A stretch of 64,000 nt of DNA, from positions 1 to 64,000 of the IMG/VR virus record IMGVR_UViG_3300044630_004371; one strand, given 5' to 3'. The notes beneath the pieces are model-generated. The model saw only the letters and a program-made list of their open reading frames with translations. It was not told the origin of the DNA and made no database searches. Position numbers and translations under genes: made by a program. The number at the start of each line of letters is the position of its first letter. The first letter of the stretch is position 1. Source of the DNA: a virus. This document shows, piece by piece, positions 26,622 through 54,616 of the stretch.

Positions 26622-27323
26622 ATGAAAAACTTTATAAAAAAATTACTACGTGAAGTAATAAACGCCAGCGAAGCACAACGAGATGAAGATGCTTTAAAAA
26701 CTGTTATAGACGGAAAGAGAGATTTGGGGTTCATAACCTTAAAAGCCGCAACAATCCCAGAAAAAACATTTTGGGATGAAATTAAAAAACATGGTTTAGG
26801 AACTATAAGTCTTCCATTGAATCGTTATAACGCTTTCATTTATTTTAGAAAAGGTGCTGAATTAAAAGCCCTTGAATTATCTAATATTGCAAATAAATAT
26901 GGTGGTTATCTATCATATGAAGCAACCAGAGATGAGACAATAAGAATTGGGCAATTGCTAGGTTATAAAGAATCAGATATATCTGATTATATAAATAAAA
27001 AATACCCAGTAAATGAACAAATGATTGATGGTCAAGACATGAATCAAGGGACCCAAACCCTGTGTAATAAAATGACCATAAACAGCTATCAAGAAGCCGC
27101 ATTCTACGTCAAGAAGGCTCTAGAAGGTATGGATAAAACAACCAAAAATAGAATCATGCAAAAGATTCATGTGCCTTTGGAGAACCTTAGACAAGAACAA
27201 AATACAATCAATTCAGAAATCAAAAATAATGGTATGTCTGGAGATTCAATACCAGACGAAGCTGATACATATTGGCATCAAATTCAATCAACCATTTGTG
27301 AAATGGGTTCAGATTTTGAATAA
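26622..27323 (+). CDS. Protein with N-terminal capsid-targeting-like peptide
   Basis: A 233-residue protein starting MKNFIKKLLREVINASE. The first 12 residues match the K-x-(L/I)-I-K-K-L-L-R-E peptide found at the start of several other proteins here and end in an (L/I)-x-E prohead protease signature. The rest is a soluble alpha/beta domain (LGFITLKAATIPEKTFWDEIKKHG, later ENLRQEQNTINSEIKNN) of no recognised family. I infer that it is an internal virion protein trimmed by the gp21-like protease. Confidence 0.7.
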   Translation: MKNFIKKLLREVINASEAQRDEDALKTVIDGKRDLGFITLKAATIPEKTFWDEIKKHGLGTISLPLNRYNAFIYFRKGAELKALELSNIANKYGGYLSYEATRDETIRIGQLLGYKESDISDYINKKYPVNEQMIDGQDMNQGTQTLCNKMTINSYQEAAFYVKKALEGMDKTTKNRIMQKIHVPLENLRQEQNTINSEIKNNGMSGDSIPDEADTYWHQIQSTICEMGSDFE

Positions 27324-28394: not shown

Positions 28395-28427
28395 TAAAAA
28401 AGGGGTTTTTAACCCCCTTTTTTTTTA
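28395..28427. terminator. Bidirectional terminator
   Basis: AAAAAGGGG and CCCCTTTTT arms flank a short loop, with T-runs on both sides. It ends the plus-strand zinc-ribbon gene and the minus-strand gene at 28425. Confidence 0.8.
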
Positions 28428-29183
28428 TCTCATATTTTTACCTAATAACCCTTCTCTATTCATTCTAATTTTTAAATCTCTTATCCATCTTTCTTTAAAA
28501 TTACTTGGTAAACTATTATTTACAGTGTTTAAGGCTGGTGATATATTTAATATATCGTCAAATGTCAAGACATTCCAATTATTTTTATATTTATTGTATA
28601 ATTGTTTAATATTATGAATTTGTCCTTGTATTTCCATTTTTGTTGCGTTAACTGGAATTCCACCTATATCTCTTGTTTGTAATTCCACCTGTTTATTGAT
28701 TCTTTTTTCTATGTGTCTATTATGAAACACATCATCAATCCAATGTGTTAATTCATGATGAATAGAACCTTTAATTTTTTCTTCGGTAAATTCTATTTTA
28801 AATATCTTTTTTTGTTTGTAATCACTTAAATCATTAACAGCTTTAACAAAATCACCACCATTCGATAACACATGAGCTAAAGCATTTTTATGTATACCAA
28901 TACTTATTAATGATTTTTTTGGGTCGTAAAAATTACTACCCATATTAACCAAAATAGTACATGGTTTTAATTGATTAGCAATGATACATTCCCCATCTTT
29001 AAAAATCCTCGTTGTTGTTTGATTTTCTTTAAACATATTTCTAGTTACAATATTGGTTCTTTCAATCTCATCAATATCATTTTTAAAATAAAGATTGTAT
29101 AATAAATTAACATCTGATTCTATATTTGTTAATCTCTCAATTAACAAATTTTCTCTTAAAAGTTTTTTAATTAAATTTTTCAT
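28425..29183 (-). CDS. HExxH zinc metallopeptidase with targeting-like peptide
   Basis: A 252-residue protein starting MKNLIKKLLRENLLIERL, the clearest copy of the shared K-x-L-I-K-K-L-L-R-E peptide. The active-site-like motif is IKGSIHHELTHWID (about residues 137-150), a HExxH zinc site, with a downstream METQ-like acidic stretch (KMEIQGQI) that could supply the third ligand. No transmembrane segment or signal peptide is present. Together with the targeting-like peptide this suggests a peptidase packaged in the head and injected into the host. A late-type promoter core sits 6 bases upstream. Confidence 0.75.
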   Translation of the reverse strand: MKNLIKKLLRENLLIERLTNIESDVNLLYNLYFKNDIDEIERTNIVTRNMFKENQTTTRIFKDGECIIANQLKPCTILVNMGSNFYDPKKSLISIGIHKNALAHVLSNGGDFVKAVNDLSDYKQKKIFKIEFTEEKIKGSIHHELTHWIDDVFHNRHIEKRINKQVELQTRDIGGIPVNATKMEIQGQIHNIKQLYNKYKNNWNVLTFDDILNISPALNTVNNSLPSNFKERWIRDLKIRMNREGLLGKNMR

Positions 29184-29198: not shown

Positions 29199-29229
29199 TT
29201 GTAATTTACAATAAGTTTTGGTATCTTTA
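29199..29229 (+). promoter_or_regulatory. Orphan host-type promoter, TTG-N20-TATCTTTA
   Basis: TTG at 29199-29201 and TATCTTTA at 29222-29229 with exact 20-base spacing. It points right, but no plus-strand gene follows; both neighbouring genes are on the minus strand. It would make a short RNA or an antisense transcript into galE. Confidence 0.4.
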
Positions 29230-29297
29230 TAAAAATTAACCTATTATGACAACAAGAGAATGAATCAGCTGAATAGCTTAAAGACTTTGAGTGATTG
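29230..29297 (+). ncRNA. Possible small RNA
   Basis: This stretch follows the orphan promoter and has no convincing ORF (only a five-codon MTTRE peptide). Its ends can pair (AACC and ACAA near 29238-29255 with TTGT and GGTT near 29297-29306), and it contains the small hairpins AGCT-GAAT-AGCT and AAAG-AC-TTTG. The call is tentative. Confidence 0.25.
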
Positions 29298-30275
29298 TTA
29301 AGGTTGATGCAATGTTTTTATGATAGATTTTACACTATCGTCAATTGTTTTGATGGGTTCCCAACCCATTATATTTTTTGCTTTTGAACTATCTGAATAT
29401 ATTTTTTCAATATCACCATCCCTACGTGGACATATTTCATATGGTATTTCATAACCATGTCTTTTAAAAGCTTCAAGTACATCCATAACGCTATACCCAT
29501 TTCCAGAACCAATATTGATAACAGAAAATGTTTCTTTTTCAGTAACTGAAATTGATTTTACATGTGCATCGGCCAAATCATTGACATCAATATAATCCCT
29601 AATTGCCGTTCCATCATGTGTATTATAATCGTTGCCAAATATTTTTAAATTAAGATATTTACCTTCTATCACACCCGTAATGTATGGTATAAGATTCTCT
29701 GGCACACCTTTAGGTTTTTCTGATATCAATCCAGATGGATGAGCTCCAATAGGATTAAAATAACGCAATATAACCACATTTAAACCACTTTTACTAACTT
29801 CTTGTAGGATTTCCTCACAAATCTGTTTTGTGAGCCCATATGGGCTTTTAGCTGGCTTTATTGGTGTATCTTCATTTACTGGAAACTTATCTGGTTCACC
29901 ATATACAGTACATGATGATGAAAAGATAAACTTCTTTACACCCATGCTTTTTGCTGCTTGTAAAAGCTTGATTGTACTGGTAATATTATTATCAAAGTAT
30001 TTTATTGGTTCCCTAACTGATTCAGAAACTGATTTATATGCCGCAAAGTGTATGATACAATCAACATCTGTAAGCACATTCTCTATAGAAAAAACACTCA
30101 AGTCAATAAAATGACATTCTACTTCTTTACCTGTCAAGGTTTTTATGTTTTCAAGCACATCAATTGATGAGTTGGACAAATTGTCGACAATGATTGGGTT
30201 ATGACCTTCTTCGATAAGTTTTACTACGGTATGGCTACCAATATAACCAAGACCACCTGTTACTAAAATATTCAT
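29298..30275 (-). CDS. galE: UDP-glucose 4-epimerase
   Basis: A 325-residue protein with all GalE hallmarks: ILVTGGLGYIGSHTVVKLIEEGH with VDNLSNS at the N-terminus, HFAAYKSVSESV, FSSSCTVYGEP, the catalytic SPYGLTK (YxxxK), RYFNPIGAHPSG, and the C-terminal RRDGDIEKIYSDSSKAKNIMGW. The ATG at 30275 gives the natural start; the frame extends eight codons further up without support. It makes UDP-galactose, the substrate of the Glf enzyme at 13290. It lies in the capsid region, far from the glycan operon and on the other strand. Confidence 0.95.
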   Translation of the reverse strand: MNILVTGGLGYIGSHTVVKLIEEGHNPIIVDNLSNSSIDVLENIKTLTGKEVECHFIDLSVFSIENVLTDVDCIIHFAAYKSVSESVREPIKYFDNNITSTIKLLQAAKSMGVKKFIFSSSCTVYGEPDKFPVNEDTPIKPAKSPYGLTKQICEEILQEVSKSGLNVVILRYFNPIGAHPSGLISEKPKGVPENLIPYITGVIEGKYLNLKIFGNDYNTHDGTAIRDYIDVNDLADAHVKSISVTEKETFSVINIGSGNGYSVMDVLEAFKRHGYEIPYEICPRRDGDIEKIYSDSSKAKNIMGWEPIKTIDDSVKSIIKTLHQP

Positions 30276-30299
30276 AAGTATAATATACGTATAAAACAA

Positions 30300-30333
30300 A
30301 AAAAGGCTAGAATAAATTCTAACCTTTTTAAGT
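30300..30333 (-). terminator. Terminator after capsid-gene remnant
   Basis: On the minus strand, AAAGGTTAGAAT and its partner ATTCTAGCCTTT form a hairpin followed by a T-run. It aligns with the terminator after the intact capsid gene at 31554 and belongs to the same duplicated segment. Confidence 0.7.
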
Positions 30334-30350
30334 TTATATAAGAATATTAA

Positions 30351-30419
30351 TTATCTTAATTCTGCTACGTTGAATGTAGGTACACCATCTACTCTTACAT
30401 GCCCGTAAAACCTGTTATT
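30351..30419 (-). pseudogene. Duplicated 3' end of the major capsid gene
   Basis: Sixty-nine bases encode the last 22 residues of the capsid protein (NNRFYGHVRVDGVPTFNVAE, then LR and a stop). The peptide is identical to the end of the intact gene, while 12 codons differ by 13 silent base changes and none changes an amino acid. A stop two codons upstream prevents any longer reading. The terminator and 3' flank are duplicated too. It is a remnant left by insertion of the HNH cassette, and its divergence shows that it comes from a different capsid allele. Confidence 0.88.
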
Positions 30420-30816
30420 TGGTTAGAATAATTTGATATGTTAAATCAGCAACGTACTCCAACATGGTCTTTCCGTGTTGTTTTATGAATTTAATTCTAT
30501 GTTTATTTACATTAAATGATTCTAATTTTGGTATTTCATTTACTTCACCCATAACATATTTATGAGCCATTGGATAATTTATAGCAAAAACCTTAAAACC
30601 CACCGAATTCACCAGCTCAACATCTCTTTTATTACCACCCCATAATTCAAGCTCATTAATATATTTATCTAAATCTTCTCGTAGGATACACCAACATTGA
30701 ATGCCATCATAAGGTAATTTTCTAATGGTACCACGATTATCAAAATTCTTTGTTCGTACAAAAATGATGTCATTATTAAGGTTTTCTCTTAATATTTTTT
30801 TTATCAACAACTTCAT
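30415..30816 (-). CDS. Hypothetical protein with targeting-like peptide
   Basis: A 133-residue protein starting MKLLIKKILRENLNND, another copy of the shared N-terminal peptide. The body (IFVRTKNFDNRGTIRKLPYDGIQCWCILREDLDKY, VGFKVFAINYPMAHKYVMGE) has no recognised family. Its stop codon lies within the first codons of the capsid-gene remnant, and it travels with the HNH gene in the inserted segment. A late-type promoter core is 3 bases upstream of its start and overlaps the end of the HNH gene. Confidence 0.7.
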   Translation of the reverse strand: MKLLIKKILRENLNNDIIFVRTKNFDNRGTIRKLPYDGIQCWCILREDLDKYINELELWGGNKRDVELVNSVGFKVFAINYPMAHKYVMGEVNEIPKLESFNVNKHRIKFIKQHGKTMLEYVADLTYQIILTK

Positions 30817-30818
30817 AT

Positions 30819-30828
30819 CTATAAATAT
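30819..30828 (-). promoter_or_regulatory. Late-type promoter core
   Basis: On the minus strand, ATATTTATAG ends 2 bases before the ATG at 30816 and lies over the last codons of the HNH gene. Confidence 0.6.
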
Positions 30829-31508
30829 CTTGGTCCTTTAGAAAGATTATCTGGCCACCATAATGGTTGAAGATTTTCCAATCGCCAACACTCTTTAAAC
30901 TCTGGGTCTTCTGGTGATGTAAAATTAAAACTTGACATTGGTCTTATATGGTCAACATGCCACTCACCATAATTATCCCACGTCATACCGTTTACAAATT
31001 GTTTTTCCAAATGATTCATCAATTCCTCAATCGTATACCCAAGCAATTCAAATGTTTTATTTGTTTTTTTAATACCACGCTCTTTAAGCAATTGCCAAAC
31101 AGCGGTACGGGTTCTAACACCTAAACGATACTTTGGGTCCTCAGAACGTCTTTTACGTTCATAATCACGCTTATATTTATTTACACGTTCTTTATTATCT
31201 TCCCTCCATTCAGTATGTTTTTCACGTAAATATTCTCTATTTTCTTTAGACCATTCTTTATAAAATTTGCTTCTTTTTAATTTTATATCTGGTTTAGATT
31301 CATATTTCTTTTGTGCAACTTGTCTACCTCCAATATTTCGTCTTCCAGATGACCCTAATACAATTCCATTTTCTTTAAGTGTTCTAATAATGATTGTTTT
31401 ATGTATACCCATTTTTTTGCTAATTGTTGTTGAACCTAATAGTTCTTCATTATACATACGTAAACATTCATATGTTTGTTCTGGCGTTAATTCTATTTTT
31501 TTACTCAT
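30819..31508 (-). CDS. HNH homing endonuclease
   Basis: A 229-residue protein. The N-terminus is a DNA-binding HTH (LTPEQTYECLRMYNEELLGSTTISKKMGIHKTIIIRTLKENGI). A long basic linker follows, and the C-terminal 70 residues carry the HNH motif (EWHVDHIRPMSSF, CWRLENLQPLWWPDNLSKG). The start is set at the ATG at 31508, since the TTG at 31523 is the edge of the promoter box. It is a free-standing mobile endonuclease and lies between the intact capsid gene and a duplicate of that gene's 3' end. Confidence 0.88.
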   Translation of the reverse strand: MSKKIELTPEQTYECLRMYNEELLGSTTISKKMGIHKTIIIRTLKENGIVLGSSGRRNIGGRQVAQKKYESKPDIKLKRSKFYKEWSKENREYLREKHTEWREDNKERVNKYKRDYERKRRSEDPKYRLGVRTRTAVWQLLKERGIKKTNKTFELLGYTIEELMNHLEKQFVNGMTWDNYGEWHVDHIRPMSSFNFTSPEDPEFKECWRLENLQPLWWPDNLSKGPRYL

Positions 31509-31512
31509 AATA

Positions 31513-31543
31513 TAAATATACAAACAATCTATTTAAAAGTCAA
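31513..31543 (-). promoter_or_regulatory. Host-type promoter for HNH gene
   Basis: On the minus strand, TTGAC is followed after 20 bases by TATATTTA (plus-strand CAA at 31541-31543, TAAATATA at 31513-31520). The upstream AGTACTTGAC matches the promoter at 36171. The ATG is only four bases past the -7 box, so the transcript would be nearly leaderless. Confidence 0.6.
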
Positions 31544-31553
31544 GTACTAAAAA

Positions 31554-31583
31554 CAAAAAAGGTGAGAAAAATCTCACCTTTTA
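31554..31583 (-). terminator. Terminator of the major capsid gene
   Basis: On the minus strand, AGGTGAGA and TCTCACCT form a hairpin followed by seven T. It ends the capsid transcript. Confidence 0.8.
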
Positions 31584-31603
31584 AGTTTTTATTTTAGAAT
31601 TAA

Positions 31604-33493
31604 TTATCTTAATTCAGCTACATTGAAGGTTGGAACACCGTCTACACGCACGTGGCCGTAGAACCTATTATTCACAACTTTTTTAGCGTAACGAGTCATG
31701 ATACCTTTAACTGGAGCAAAGTTAAAAGGATTGTACATTGTTGGAGTCAATTGCAATGGCACGTATGGTGCGTAAATGTAACCTGTATCCAATAATGATT
31801 TACCTTTGTGACCAACGACTACTGAGTAAGCTGGAGCATAAGGGTCACGGTACACTTGGTAACGTCCACTTAAAGTTCCGATTCTTTCAATACCCATGTT
31901 GTATTGGTCTTGCTCTGGGTTAGCATCTGATACGTGGAAATATTCCAAATCATCGAAAATTGCAGAGATTTCAGAAGAAACCACGATGAAGTTAGCACCA
32001 CCACGAAGAGTTGATTTATGAATTTGAGCACTCAATTGGTTAACTCTAGTAAGAAGAGTTTGGTTCCAGTCTTTTTGAGTGTATGGGCTAGCAGCAGAAG
32101 AAGCTTTTCTCCAACCGTTGTAGTCCCAACGTAATTGCCATGCAGCAGCTTTACGTAAATCTCTAAGGATTTCACGGTCAATTTCCGCAGCAACTTGTTC
32201 TGACAACATAGCTGTCAATTCAGCTTCAGCATCAATGTTGTGGAATGCACTAACATCTTGAGCCAATTCTGGTGACCATGTTGCACGTAATTTTCTTTCT
32301 TCAACAGCAACTACAACTTCAGAAAGTGTGAAAGAAACCTCTCCCAATTCTGTTTCAAGTTCTAATGAAGAATATTCAGCCCATGCAAAACTTAAACTGT
32401 TAGTAACAGCTGAAGTTGAATAAGCAATACCACCAGTAGCACCAGTTGTACCTACATAACCATCATAAGTTGAAGTACCAGCAAGGGCAGTACCACTAGC
32501 AGTTGTACCAACTGGATGACGGAAATCTAATTCAAGATAGATAAGACCAGTATCAGTTACCAAGTTAGATGTTGGATTTTGAACGATAGCCTTGCCATAT
32601 TGTTGAGTTACTACACGGAAAGGAATTTCTTTGTTAGTAGCAATAACTGTGTTACCATCAGAATCTTTATAGTTACCACCAGCAACAACGTGCAATGAAG
32701 CCAAGAATGATTCAGTATCCATGTTGTTACCATCTGGACCAGTTAATACTTCACGTCCATTAGAACCAGCACCACCAGAGAAACCAGAAAGACCTACGAT
32801 TGCACTTCTAACTGAACCATCAGTAGATGTTGGCAATAAAGTAGCACCATAAGTAGGGGTTAATGAACCATCTGAATTAAATGTGAAGGTTGTGTAAGTT
32901 GTTTGTGTTTTGATAGTAAGAGTACCTTTTGAATTGTCGAATAAACCGTCATTGTAGAAGATATCATACATGTTTTTAGCTTGGAACTGAGTCAATGGAG
33001 TTGAAGCTTTAGTAGCAGCAACTGGCAACGCAGCAGCAGTAGCAACACCGTTGTGTTCACCATTCAAACCAGTGTGAGCTGAGAATGTTGTACCATAAAC
33101 GTCTGAACTTGGACTTAATGAATAATCATCACCAGCAACACCAGCAGAGTTTACACGGCTAGATGTTTGAGGGACAAAGAAGAACAATTTACCAATAGGC
33201 ATGTTCATAGCTTGTACAGACACGATGTCGTTAGCTAATAATTTAGAGAAAACTCTACGTACAATTGGGAATACAACTGTTTCGAAAGAACCAGAAGATT
33301 GTGCAGTTGTAGACTCAGTAAGTAATGTAGAAGCTTGGTTCTCATATAACTGAGCGATATTTTCTTTTACGTGGCCTTTAAGACCGTCAAGGAAGCCTAA
33401 GCTATCCCATTTTGATTGGGTTTCTTTACGGATAGCCTTCATGTGGTTCAATCCGATATTACCCACTTGTCCAGATGTTAATAAATGTGACAT
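31604..33493 (-). CDS. Major capsid protein, T4 gp23-like
   Basis: A 629-residue protein, longer than T4 gp23 (about 520), with the gp23 core: FPIVRRVFSKLLANDIVSVQAMNMPIGKLFFFV (about residues 75-107), and later EISAIFDDLEYF, YQVYRDPYAPAYSVVVGHKGKSLLDTGYIYAPYVPLQLTP near the C-terminus. A prohead protease site is visible at ENQASTLLTE (residue 60) before a Ser/Thr stretch, matching T4 gp23 maturation. The extra length lies in a Gly/Thr-rich central insertion (about residues 110-350). Its 3' end is duplicated at 30351. Confidence 0.93.
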   Translation of the reverse strand: MSHLLTSGQVGNIGLNHMKAIRKETQSKWDSLGFLDGLKGHVKENIAQLYENQASTLLTESTTAQSSGSFETVVFPIVRRVFSKLLANDIVSVQAMNMPIGKLFFFVPQTSSRVNSAGVAGDDYSLSPSSDVYGTTFSAHTGLNGEHNGVATAAALPVAATKASTPLTQFQAKNMYDIFYNDGLFDNSKGTLTIKTQTTYTTFTFNSDGSLTPTYGATLLPTSTDGSVRSAIVGLSGFSGGAGSNGREVLTGPDGNNMDTESFLASLHVVAGGNYKDSDGNTVIATNKEIPFRVVTQQYGKAIVQNPTSNLVTDTGLIYLELDFRHPVGTTASGTALAGTSTYDGYVGTTGATGGIAYSTSAVTNSLSFAWAEYSSLELETELGEVSFTLSEVVVAVEERKLRATWSPELAQDVSAFHNIDAEAELTAMLSEQVAAEIDREILRDLRKAAAWQLRWDYNGWRKASSAASPYTQKDWNQTLLTRVNQLSAQIHKSTLRGGANFIVVSSEISAIFDDLEYFHVSDANPEQDQYNMGIERIGTLSGRYQVYRDPYAPAYSVVVGHKGKSLLDTGYIYAPYVPLQLTPTMYNPFNFAPVKGIMTRYAKKVVNNRFYGHVRVDGVPTFNVAELR

Positions 33494-33527
33494 GTTTTTA
33501 TTTGTTTTAGTTTTTTGTTATTTGTTA

Positions 33528-34793
33528 TTATTTTCTTTCAACTCTATTAATCAAATCTAAGATTCGTTTAGTTGAAGGGTCTACATACGCAGTACTTTCG
33601 TTCAATTGTCTTGAAGAACTTGTTGTAGCTTCTTTAATGATTTTGTTTTCTACTGATTCAGAAATTGGTTTTCTAGTTTCCAATTCGTTGACAATAGTTT
33701 TGTACAACTTTTTAGATTCTTTAAGACTTAAAACATCTTCATCAAATCTTTTAATGATGTTTTGTTTTTCAACCTTAGTAGTAGCGTGTTCGGTAAACAA
33801 TTTAGTTACATAAGTAAGATTGCTATTAAACACTACAGTTTCTACCAATTTTGTTCTAAACTCTTTCAAAGCTGTTCTGAACTCTTGGTTCTCAGCTCTC
33901 AATTTGCTAGCTTCAGTCAATAAAAGGTTATATTTTTTGGTTGTTTCAGAAACAAGTTTCTTAGTGGCTTCAGTGATAGATTTAGGGTTTTCTGGAGCTC
34001 CAATTGATTTTGGTCCTTTACCACGATGTGTTCCCACGCTCATATTAGTACCAATACTAATTTTTTCTTCAATAGGTTCTTCTTCAGACTCTTCCTCTTC
34101 TTCTTCCTCTTCACCTTCTTCATCATCCACAGACATCAAATCAGTTGGTTCTTCACCATCTTCTTCGTCACCCATTTCGATTTCATAATCTACGTCACCT
34201 TCTTCATCACCCATTTCTGGTTCCATTTCTGGTTCCATTTCTGGTTCCATTTCTGGTTCCATTTCTGTAGAACCTTTAAGGTCAGATGTTTTGATAACGT
34301 ATTCTCCTGGTTCAGAGACACTAAGGTGAATTTCGTCACCCACGATTTCGATTTCATCATCACCACTCAATTTCTTGTAGATTGCGATAACGTCATCATC
34401 TGATGCAGATGTCATGTCCAATTCTTCTGATGCACCTAAGTCATCCATTCCTTCTTCGTATGTCATGCCTTCAGCTTCCATACCTTCTGTGTCCATACCT
34501 TCTGTCATTTTTTTAGATTTAGCTTTTTCTTTCTTTTCAGAACCACCTTTGCCATGTTCAGCTTTTTCTTCTTTTTCAGATTCACCAGCTTCATGTTCTT
34601 CATGTGATTCTTCATTTACAGAACCAACTTCCTCTTCTTCATAAACCTCTCTAGTTAGAGATTCTTTCACAACACCATCAATTTCTTCTCTAGCTACGCT
34701 ACGAAGTATTTCTTTTGTGTTGGCATTGAGAGCACTTTGAATATTTTTAATATCCAATAAAGCTTCTTCAAGTATTGATTTTTTGTCTGCCAT
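33528..34793 (-). CDS. Prohead scaffold protein, gp22-like
   Basis: A 421-residue, highly acidic protein between the capsid and protease genes, the place of T4 gp22. It has long Glu-rich stretches (about residues 50-95 and 210-245), a (EPEM) tandem repeat near residues 180-200, and a coiled-coil C-terminal half (KYNLLLTEASKLRAENQEFRTALKEFRTKLVETV). LNE/KEA-type (L/I)-x-E sites occur near the C-terminus (KIIKEATTS, RQLNESTA), as expected for a core cleaved on maturation. No enzyme domain is present. Confidence 0.78.
   Translation of the reverse strand: MADKKSILEEALLDIKNIQSALNANTKEILRSVAREEIDGVVKESLTREVYEEEEVGSVNEESHEEHEAGESEKEEKAEHGKGGSEKKEKAKSKKMTEGMDTEGMEAEGMTYEEGMDDLGASEELDMTSASDDDVIAIYKKLSGDDEIEIVGDEIHLSVSEPGEYVIKTSDLKGSTEMEPEMEPEMEPEMEPEMGDEEGDVDYEIEMGDEEDGEEPTDLMSVDDEEGEEEEEEEESEEEPIEEKISIGTNMSVGTHRGKGPKSIGAPENPKSITEATKKLVSETTKKYNLLLTEASKLRAENQEFRTALKEFRTKLVETVVFNSNLTYVTKLFTEHATTKVEKQNIIKRFDEDVLSLKESKKLYKTIVNELETRKPISESVENKIIKEATTSSSRQLNESTAYVDPSTKRILDLINRVERK
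34212..34265. repeat. 12-bp tandem repeat in scaffold gene
   Basis: About 4.5 copies of TGGTTCCATTTC, giving the repeated EPEM protein pattern. The near-perfect repetition suggests recent slippage. Confidence 0.85.
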
Positions 34794-54214: not shown

Positions 54215-54616
54215 ATGAAACCAATAATTAAACAACTTTTAAGAGAAAGATTGATGGGAAAAGAAGAGGCTGATTTAAGAGCAGTTGCTGATTTTGTCAA
54301 CTTTGCCAAAGAATTTTTAGGTATTACAGATGATATAAAAATTAAATTGGCGTTTGAAAGAACATCAGACCTTAAAACAACAGCTTATTACAGCATGTTG
54401 GGTGAGTTGGTTGTCTACGCCAAAGATAGGGCTATTATCGATATCTGTCGTTCAATTGCACATGAATTGGTTCACCATAAACAAAACCTTGAAGAGCGAT
54501 TGGTCAACGCTGTTAAAGACGGTGAAGACGGAAGTCCTATTGAAAACGAGGCCAACGCTGTAGCTGGTGTCATTATCAGAAAGTATGGCAAAATAAAACC
54601 AGAAATTTATATATAA
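54215..54616 (+). CDS. Small HExxH metallopeptidase with targeting-like peptide
   Basis: A 133-residue protein starting MKPIIKQLLRERLMG, a copy of the shared K-x-I-I-K-Q-L-L-R-E peptide. The zinc motif is SIAHELVHHKQNLEER (about residues 85-100), with a following IENEANAVAGVI acidic segment that could give the third ligand. The start at 54215 is chosen because it is downstream of the promoter core. It is the first of four linked genes for probable internal virion proteins. Confidence 0.75.
   Translation: MKPIIKQLLRERLMGKEEADLRAVADFVNFAKEFLGITDDIKIKLAFERTSDLKTTAYYSMLGELVVYAKDRAIIDICRSIAHELVHHKQNLEERLVNAVKDGEDGSPIENEANAVAGVIIRKYGKIKPEIYI

Follow-up and report, generated by a model that had tools for sequence, protein, structure and literature searches.

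A free-standing HNH endonuclease gene next to the major capsid gene of a phage probably encodes a homing endonuclease that cleaves the capsid 3′ end, brings along a recoded and putatively immune version of that end, and sometimes enters its recipient by one-sided repair. The locus lies in a window of 64,000 nt (the whole stretch of DNA that was analysed) taken from an 86.9-kb virus record. In minus-strand order, the capsid gene is followed by a terminator, the HNH gene, a 133-aa gene, a 22-codon copy of the capsid end, a second terminator and an epimerase gene, with the following coordinates.

31604–33493, minus strand: intact major capsid gene, T4 gp23 family (Pfam Gp23, 1.5e-72)
31643–31714, minus strand: predicted nuclease target at capsid codons -36 to -13 (synonymous divergence and rare codons peak here in HNH carriers only)
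31652–31681, minus strand: putative target core, codons -25 to -16 (same carrier-only peak)
31548–31591, minus strand: first terminator (inverted repeat I8)
30819–31508, minus strand: HNH endonuclease, 229 aa (phrog_1035, 9e-16; homologue alignment; AlphaFold model)
30415–30816, minus strand: small cargo gene, 133 aa, start MKLLIKKILREN, a few bases past the HNH stop
30351–30419, minus strand: displaced resident capsid 3′ end, 22 codons plus stop (sequence comparison; protein search of the phage's own record)
about 30303–30329, minus strand: second terminator, in the resident trailer (sequence; matches the trailers of HNH-less relatives L193 and L194)
29298–30272, minus strand: epimerase (Pfam Epimerase, 8e-51)

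The HNH protein most likely starts at ATG 31508 rather than at the listed TTG 31523.

The original observation that the last 22 capsid codons, their stop and their terminator are repeated past the HNH gene and the small gene is confirmed. Segment 30351–30419 (minus strand) encodes NNRFYGHVRVDGVPTFNVAELR and a stop, and is protein-identical to the capsid 3′ end at 31604–31672 (minus strand). The duplicate had been placed at 30300–30419; it is present there, its coding part covering only 30351–30419, and a hairpin terminator follows each of the two copies. Codon comparison of the two 69-nt ends bears out the 13 nucleotide differences noted originally: each is synonymous, and a single Arg codon holds two. 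The repeat spans 94 nt at 80% identity and is far beyond chance, a protein search of the phage's own record independently finding the remnant (E 6e-9). Recent tandem duplication is ruled out, in agreement with the earlier claim that the duplicate is no recent copy, because none of the 13 differences alters the protein and the flank downstream is that of the resident. The remnant was also said to begin at the stop codon of the small gene. The overlap is real; more precisely, the TAA (30417–30415) falls inside the first codons of the remnant, AATAAC.

The origin of the duplicate is apparent from two HNH-less relatives, L193 and L194, retrieved by searching with the epimerase. Capsid gene, terminator and this same epimerase are directly adjacent in both, with identities to the window of 91% and 90% for the epimerase and 84% and 82% for the capsid, respectively. 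Aligned to either of them, the window falls into two blocks, with the capsid 3′ end as their overlap. In this alignment, run as originally proposed, the remnant resembles the relatives more closely than the intact copy does, both in the coding part (60/69 and 60/69 versus 55/69 and 57/69) and in the trailer (75/95 and 78/91 versus 50/99 and 53/96). The trailer of the intact copy resembles instead those of HNH carriers. Since capsid gene, terminator and epimerase are adjacent in L193 and L194, the duplicate and its downstream flank correspond to the resident 3′ end, and the HNH and small genes to the insert. Comparison of 3′ ends and trailers thus indicates that the 3′ end of the intact capsid gene is the copy brought by the cassette, to which the first terminator would also belong. 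The layout largely supports the prediction of an HNH cassette that displaced the resident end with a donor one. In L110, the closest HNH relative, the cassette is joined at the capsid stop codon, without a coding remnant and with a different cargo gene.

A second pair of occupied and empty sites is nearly isogenic: L134 (with cassette) and L023 (without) are 99.9% identical over 4881 bp on the left and 99.85% over 4664 bp on the right, with an overlap of 69 bp. L023 could be the ancestor of L134 or its deletion product. The latter, by recombination between intact end and remnant, the remnant acting as a direct repeat that lets the cassette be lost cleanly, is possible, if on the doubtful side. 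It accords with the mosaic capsid end of L023, the left part of which is as in the main copy of L134 and the right part as in the remnant. An earlier insertion would still be needed to create the repeat, and L193 and L194, as diverged empty sites, cannot be recent deletions. This alternative concerns the L134/L023 pair only and is compatible with homing.

Displaced ends recur elsewhere, and they begin at one place. A search of 175 capsid loci for any suffix of the capsid C-terminus recovered remnants in the window, L119, L019 (on the same contig as L081) and L134, as well as in L089. As L089 and a further case, L095, came via a codon pattern that favours this breakpoint, the unbiased set is confined to the first four, each of which begins at codon -22 or -21 (counted back from the gene end); L089 and L095 begin there too. 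The breakpoint corresponds to 31672/31673 on the intact capsid gene of the window. A second pattern, with a preceding codon starting with G, gave a false hit only. The five remnants outside the window are independent and in other phages, making six unrelated backgrounds in all. The preceding gene also differs: it encodes 133 aa in the window and 63 aa in L134, L019 has an acetyltransferase-like gene of 257 aa, and in L119 the place is taken by a broken DUF723-like gene on the opposite strand. The TAA stop of the preceding gene coincides with the opening bases of the remnant, in whole or in part, in three cases (the window, L089 and L095), which is the pattern expected from microhomology joining. 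It had been proposed that an HNH-less phage with the duplicate would speak against homing; none was found among the loci checked except L019 and L089, where another gene lies between the copies, at the same breakpoint. Downstream of the remnant, L019 has a GIY-YIG-like open reading frame (L019:9141-10238) with a weak PHROG match. Downstream of the L095 remnant, at least 14 tRNA genes occur on the minus strand (L095:4100-8100), with no full capsid gene close by.

The HNH protein consists of an N-terminal helix-turn-helix, a helical linker and a C-terminal HNH part (WHVDH...NLQPLW...N), the catalytic residues D186-H187, N212 and N221 of which are invariant in 33 homologues. No Pfam HNH family was matched in a Pfam search, and a PDB sequence search found nothing relevant. 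The AlphaFold model has a mean pLDDT of 83.6 and a pTM of 0.50, with good local confidence for the helix-turn-helix and linker, which on this model could set the target; in Foldseek, it yielded weak helix-turn-helix-like matches only and no HNH enzyme. The catalytic part is common to HNH proteins of many unrelated phages. Yet the address is fixed: among the best 80 homologues in IMG/VR, 80 have the same capsid gene immediately upstream. The HNH gene stands outside any intron or intein and is variably present among relatives (empty sites in L193, L194 and L023), being found in 93 capsid loci and absent from 72. Distances between HNH proteins correlate moderately with those between capsids (r 0.60), so that much of the inheritance is vertical. 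Two HNH copies with in-frame stops, apparently degenerate, still lie beside the capsid gene (L130:5001-5696 and L139:5001-5708). In HNH-less relatives, a second putative homing endonuclease of about 500–570 aa, PD-(D/E)XK/EDxHD-like or of DUF723 type, is located directly downstream of the capsid gene (L004:8043-9635, L061:7968-9671, L059:8100-9611 and others). In 21 loci, an EDxHD-like or DUF723-type gene follows the capsid gene within 3.5 kb.

Carriers of the HNH gene also differ from non-carriers within the capsid gene itself. Among 116 non-redundant capsid genes, 56 with the HNH gene and 60 without, codon choice at conserved residues differs most at codons -28 to -13. Kinship was controlled by comparing nearest carrier/non-carrier pairs with nearest non-carrier pairs. 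The ratio of synonymous differences at codons -36 to -13 to those in the gene body is 1.86 (95% interval 1.56–2.28) in matched carrier/non-carrier pairs and 1.88 in carrier pairs, versus 0.99 (0.69–1.38) in non-carrier pairs. Carriers have rarer codons at -36 to -13 (p 1e-10) and normal codons at -12 to -1 (p 0.43); in these last 12 codons, nearest the HNH gene, divergence is no higher than in non-carrier pairs. None of the 144 codon windows along the capsid gene is more extreme than this rare-codon stretch, which has its core at -25 to -16 and weaker effects out to about -55. No such peak at codons -36 to -13 exists in non-carriers. In 20 matched pairs it is the carrier that has lost GTT at codon -23, and in 0 the non-carrier (p 2e-6). 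Rare codons and an internal peak are not predicted by co-conversion alone but are predicted by selection for an altered target under a fixed protein; mutagenic repair at the break could add to the recoding. The recoding is imperfect: of 56 carriers, 4 keep GTTAAC, and sequence of the recoded type also occurs in some phages that lack the HNH gene (L194 and L023).

The remnants do not all derive from naive alleles. Those of the window and L119 are themselves of the carrier type, and that of the window has rare codons, by which the prediction that every remnant would be of the naive type is rejected. Hence, the displacement of a resident end stands, with the qualification that the allele displaced in the window was already of the rare-codon, HNH-associated type. 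The nuclease that made these two remnants must have cut a recoded allele. The plain reading would be a cycle of invasion, recoding, nuclease loss and re-invasion by a nuclease of changed specificity.

It is improbable that ordinary recombination merely inserted genes past the capsid gene, duplicate and codon divergence reflecting co-conversion from a distant donor without any capsid-specific nuclease. The region downstream of the capsid gene is indeed variable and contains many different genes, and exon co-conversion is one candidate for the raised diversity beside mobile introns (PMC5378118). However, co-conversion should raise divergence beside the HNH gene and bring ordinary codons, whereas the last 12 codons are not elevated and the peak sits at the breakpoint and is made of rare codons. 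A simple co-conversion gradient is rejected on these grounds. Moreover, remnants start at the same or an adjacent codon in six unrelated backgrounds. There is likewise little likelihood that the cutter is, or was, another nuclease (EDxHD/PD-(D/E)XK-like) at the same address, with the HNH gene as a passenger or as one competing drive. Such a nuclease might be sought in the EDxHD-like or DUF723-type genes of the 21 loci, including L119 beside its remnant, and would account for the remnants of L019 and L089 without an HNH gene between the copies; yet the codon signature tracks HNH presence, and the few EDxHD carriers (11) have no rare-codon excess at -25 to -21. A degenerate group I intron, the old 3′ exon of which would be the remnant and would explain the shared upstream boundary, is rejected as having a negligible chance, since Rfam intron models give no match in 29200–33600, even with the cut-off relaxed to E 1, nor in five remnant loci at the gathering score, and the sequences preceding the remnants have no intron-like end in common and contain coding stop codons.

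The original idea of an intronless-homing footprint beside the capsid gene is thus supported by what the sequences directly display, namely empty and occupied sites, a shared breakpoint, a fixed address and recoding in carriers. Cleavage, the exact cut position, immunity of the recoded sequence and the route of repair are what we infer from this pattern. Several findings weigh against this reading: the imperfect recoding, recoded-type sequence in some HNH-less phages, carrier-type remnants in the window and L119, the remnants of L019 and L089 that have no HNH gene between the copies, the remnant-free junction of L110 and the large share of vertical inheritance. The HNH nuclease would cut the capsid gene of a competing phage near codons -23/-22. 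The broken left end would be repaired from the donor via capsid homology, copying in the silently recoded, probably uncuttable 3′ end, the terminator, the HNH gene and the following gene. Without downstream homology, the right end would be joined illegitimately at the break, often at TAA-stop microhomology, leaving the old 3′ end and terminator of the recipient as the remnant. Home-and-rescue drive designs include a recoded rescue copy. Because the capsid gene is essential, the HNH gene and the recoded 3′ end may work like a natural drive of this kind. It is tempting to extend this, with a chance that we put just short of even, to competing nuclease families at one address, serial rare-codon recoding and shuttling of accessory genes that enter by illegitimate repair. 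The phage group involved is large and probably one of Bacteroidetes.

The cargo varies between cassettes. No relatives of the 133-aa protein were found in IMG/VR, and carriers have differing genes after the HNH gene; a fixed cargo is thereby ruled out. Of the targeting-peptide gene that had been predicted as cargo, what stands is the possible peptide. The MKLLIKKILREN start is shared by further genes of the window and by many that follow a capsid or HNH gene. Starts of the form MKxxIKxLLRE occur in the window at 26622–27323 (plus strand), 28425–29183 (minus strand) and 54215–54616 (plus strand). This type of start is a possible prohead-targeting peptide: LRE in MKLLIKKILREN fits the L-x-E type of the T4 prohead-protease site, and a Peptidase_S77, which is a prohead protease of the L-x-E-cutting class, is encoded near the capsid locus. 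Judging from these motifs, it is plausible that proteins with such a start are packaged in the head; on the extended drive reading, the accessory genes brought to the capsid address would possibly be virion-packaged.

T-even phages are known to have free-standing homing endonucleases, intronless homing and one-sided repair, and one-sided illegitimate repair with microhomology junctions is known for T4 intron homing (PMC2988022). The locus resembles SegF, SegG and MobE in that the endonuclease gene is intergenic, its probable target lies in an adjoining essential gene and the flank is inherited with it (PMC2988022); it differs in nuclease family and probable target, and in its visible population-wide silent recoding and displaced gene ends. 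T4 SegD, between genes 23 and 24, is also a homing endonuclease beside the major capsid gene (PMC2988022), but is of the GIY-YIG family, in opposite orientation, with its target listed as unknown. One-sided double-strand-break repair in T4 similarly combines homology on one side with a microhomology junction on the other (PMC2988022), in a laboratory assay; here, a natural footprint is repeated at one breakpoint. Raised diversity near homing-endonuclease targets was described for mobile introns (Repar and Warnecke 2017; PMC5378118) as a gradient at the intron boundary, whereas here the peak is at the predicted target, >100 bp from the HNH gene, and involves rare codons. F-CphI of cyanophage S-PM2 is a free-standing homing endonuclease adjoining its target gene (PMC6083498), with a DHHRN catalytic motif, zinc cysteines and intron-based self-protection instead of recoding. 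The CX2-4C and CX2C zinc cysteines that flank DHDH in the DHHRN type (F-CphI/Endo VII; PMC6083498) have no counterpart in the homologue alignment of the HNH family, with one conserved cysteine and no CX2C. Engineered home-and-rescue drives also aim a homing nuclease at an essential gene (PMC7968924); they are Cas9-based and in insects, in contrast to a natural phage locus.

No description of this HNH family, its capsid address or carrier-specific silent recoding was found in searches of open-access papers. Homing endonucleases are expected to force target change, for which natural evidence usually consists of a few isolated alleles. Here, >50 distinct carriers and about as many non-carriers delimit, within an essential gene, a sharply bounded zone of silent unfavourable codons exactly where the displaced ends begin. 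This allows the target of an uncharacterised nuclease family to be predicted to the codon, and suggests a natural parallel to engineered recoded-rescue drives as well as a route for accessory genes into phage genomes next to the capsid gene.

Finally, capsid terminators are followed by a conserved GATATTTATA motif, placed immediately ahead of the next ATG (window about 30810–30830, minus strand; L110:5690-5708; many trailers). The HNH 3′ end (..RYL stop) encodes this motif, as if the nuclease preserved a promoter.
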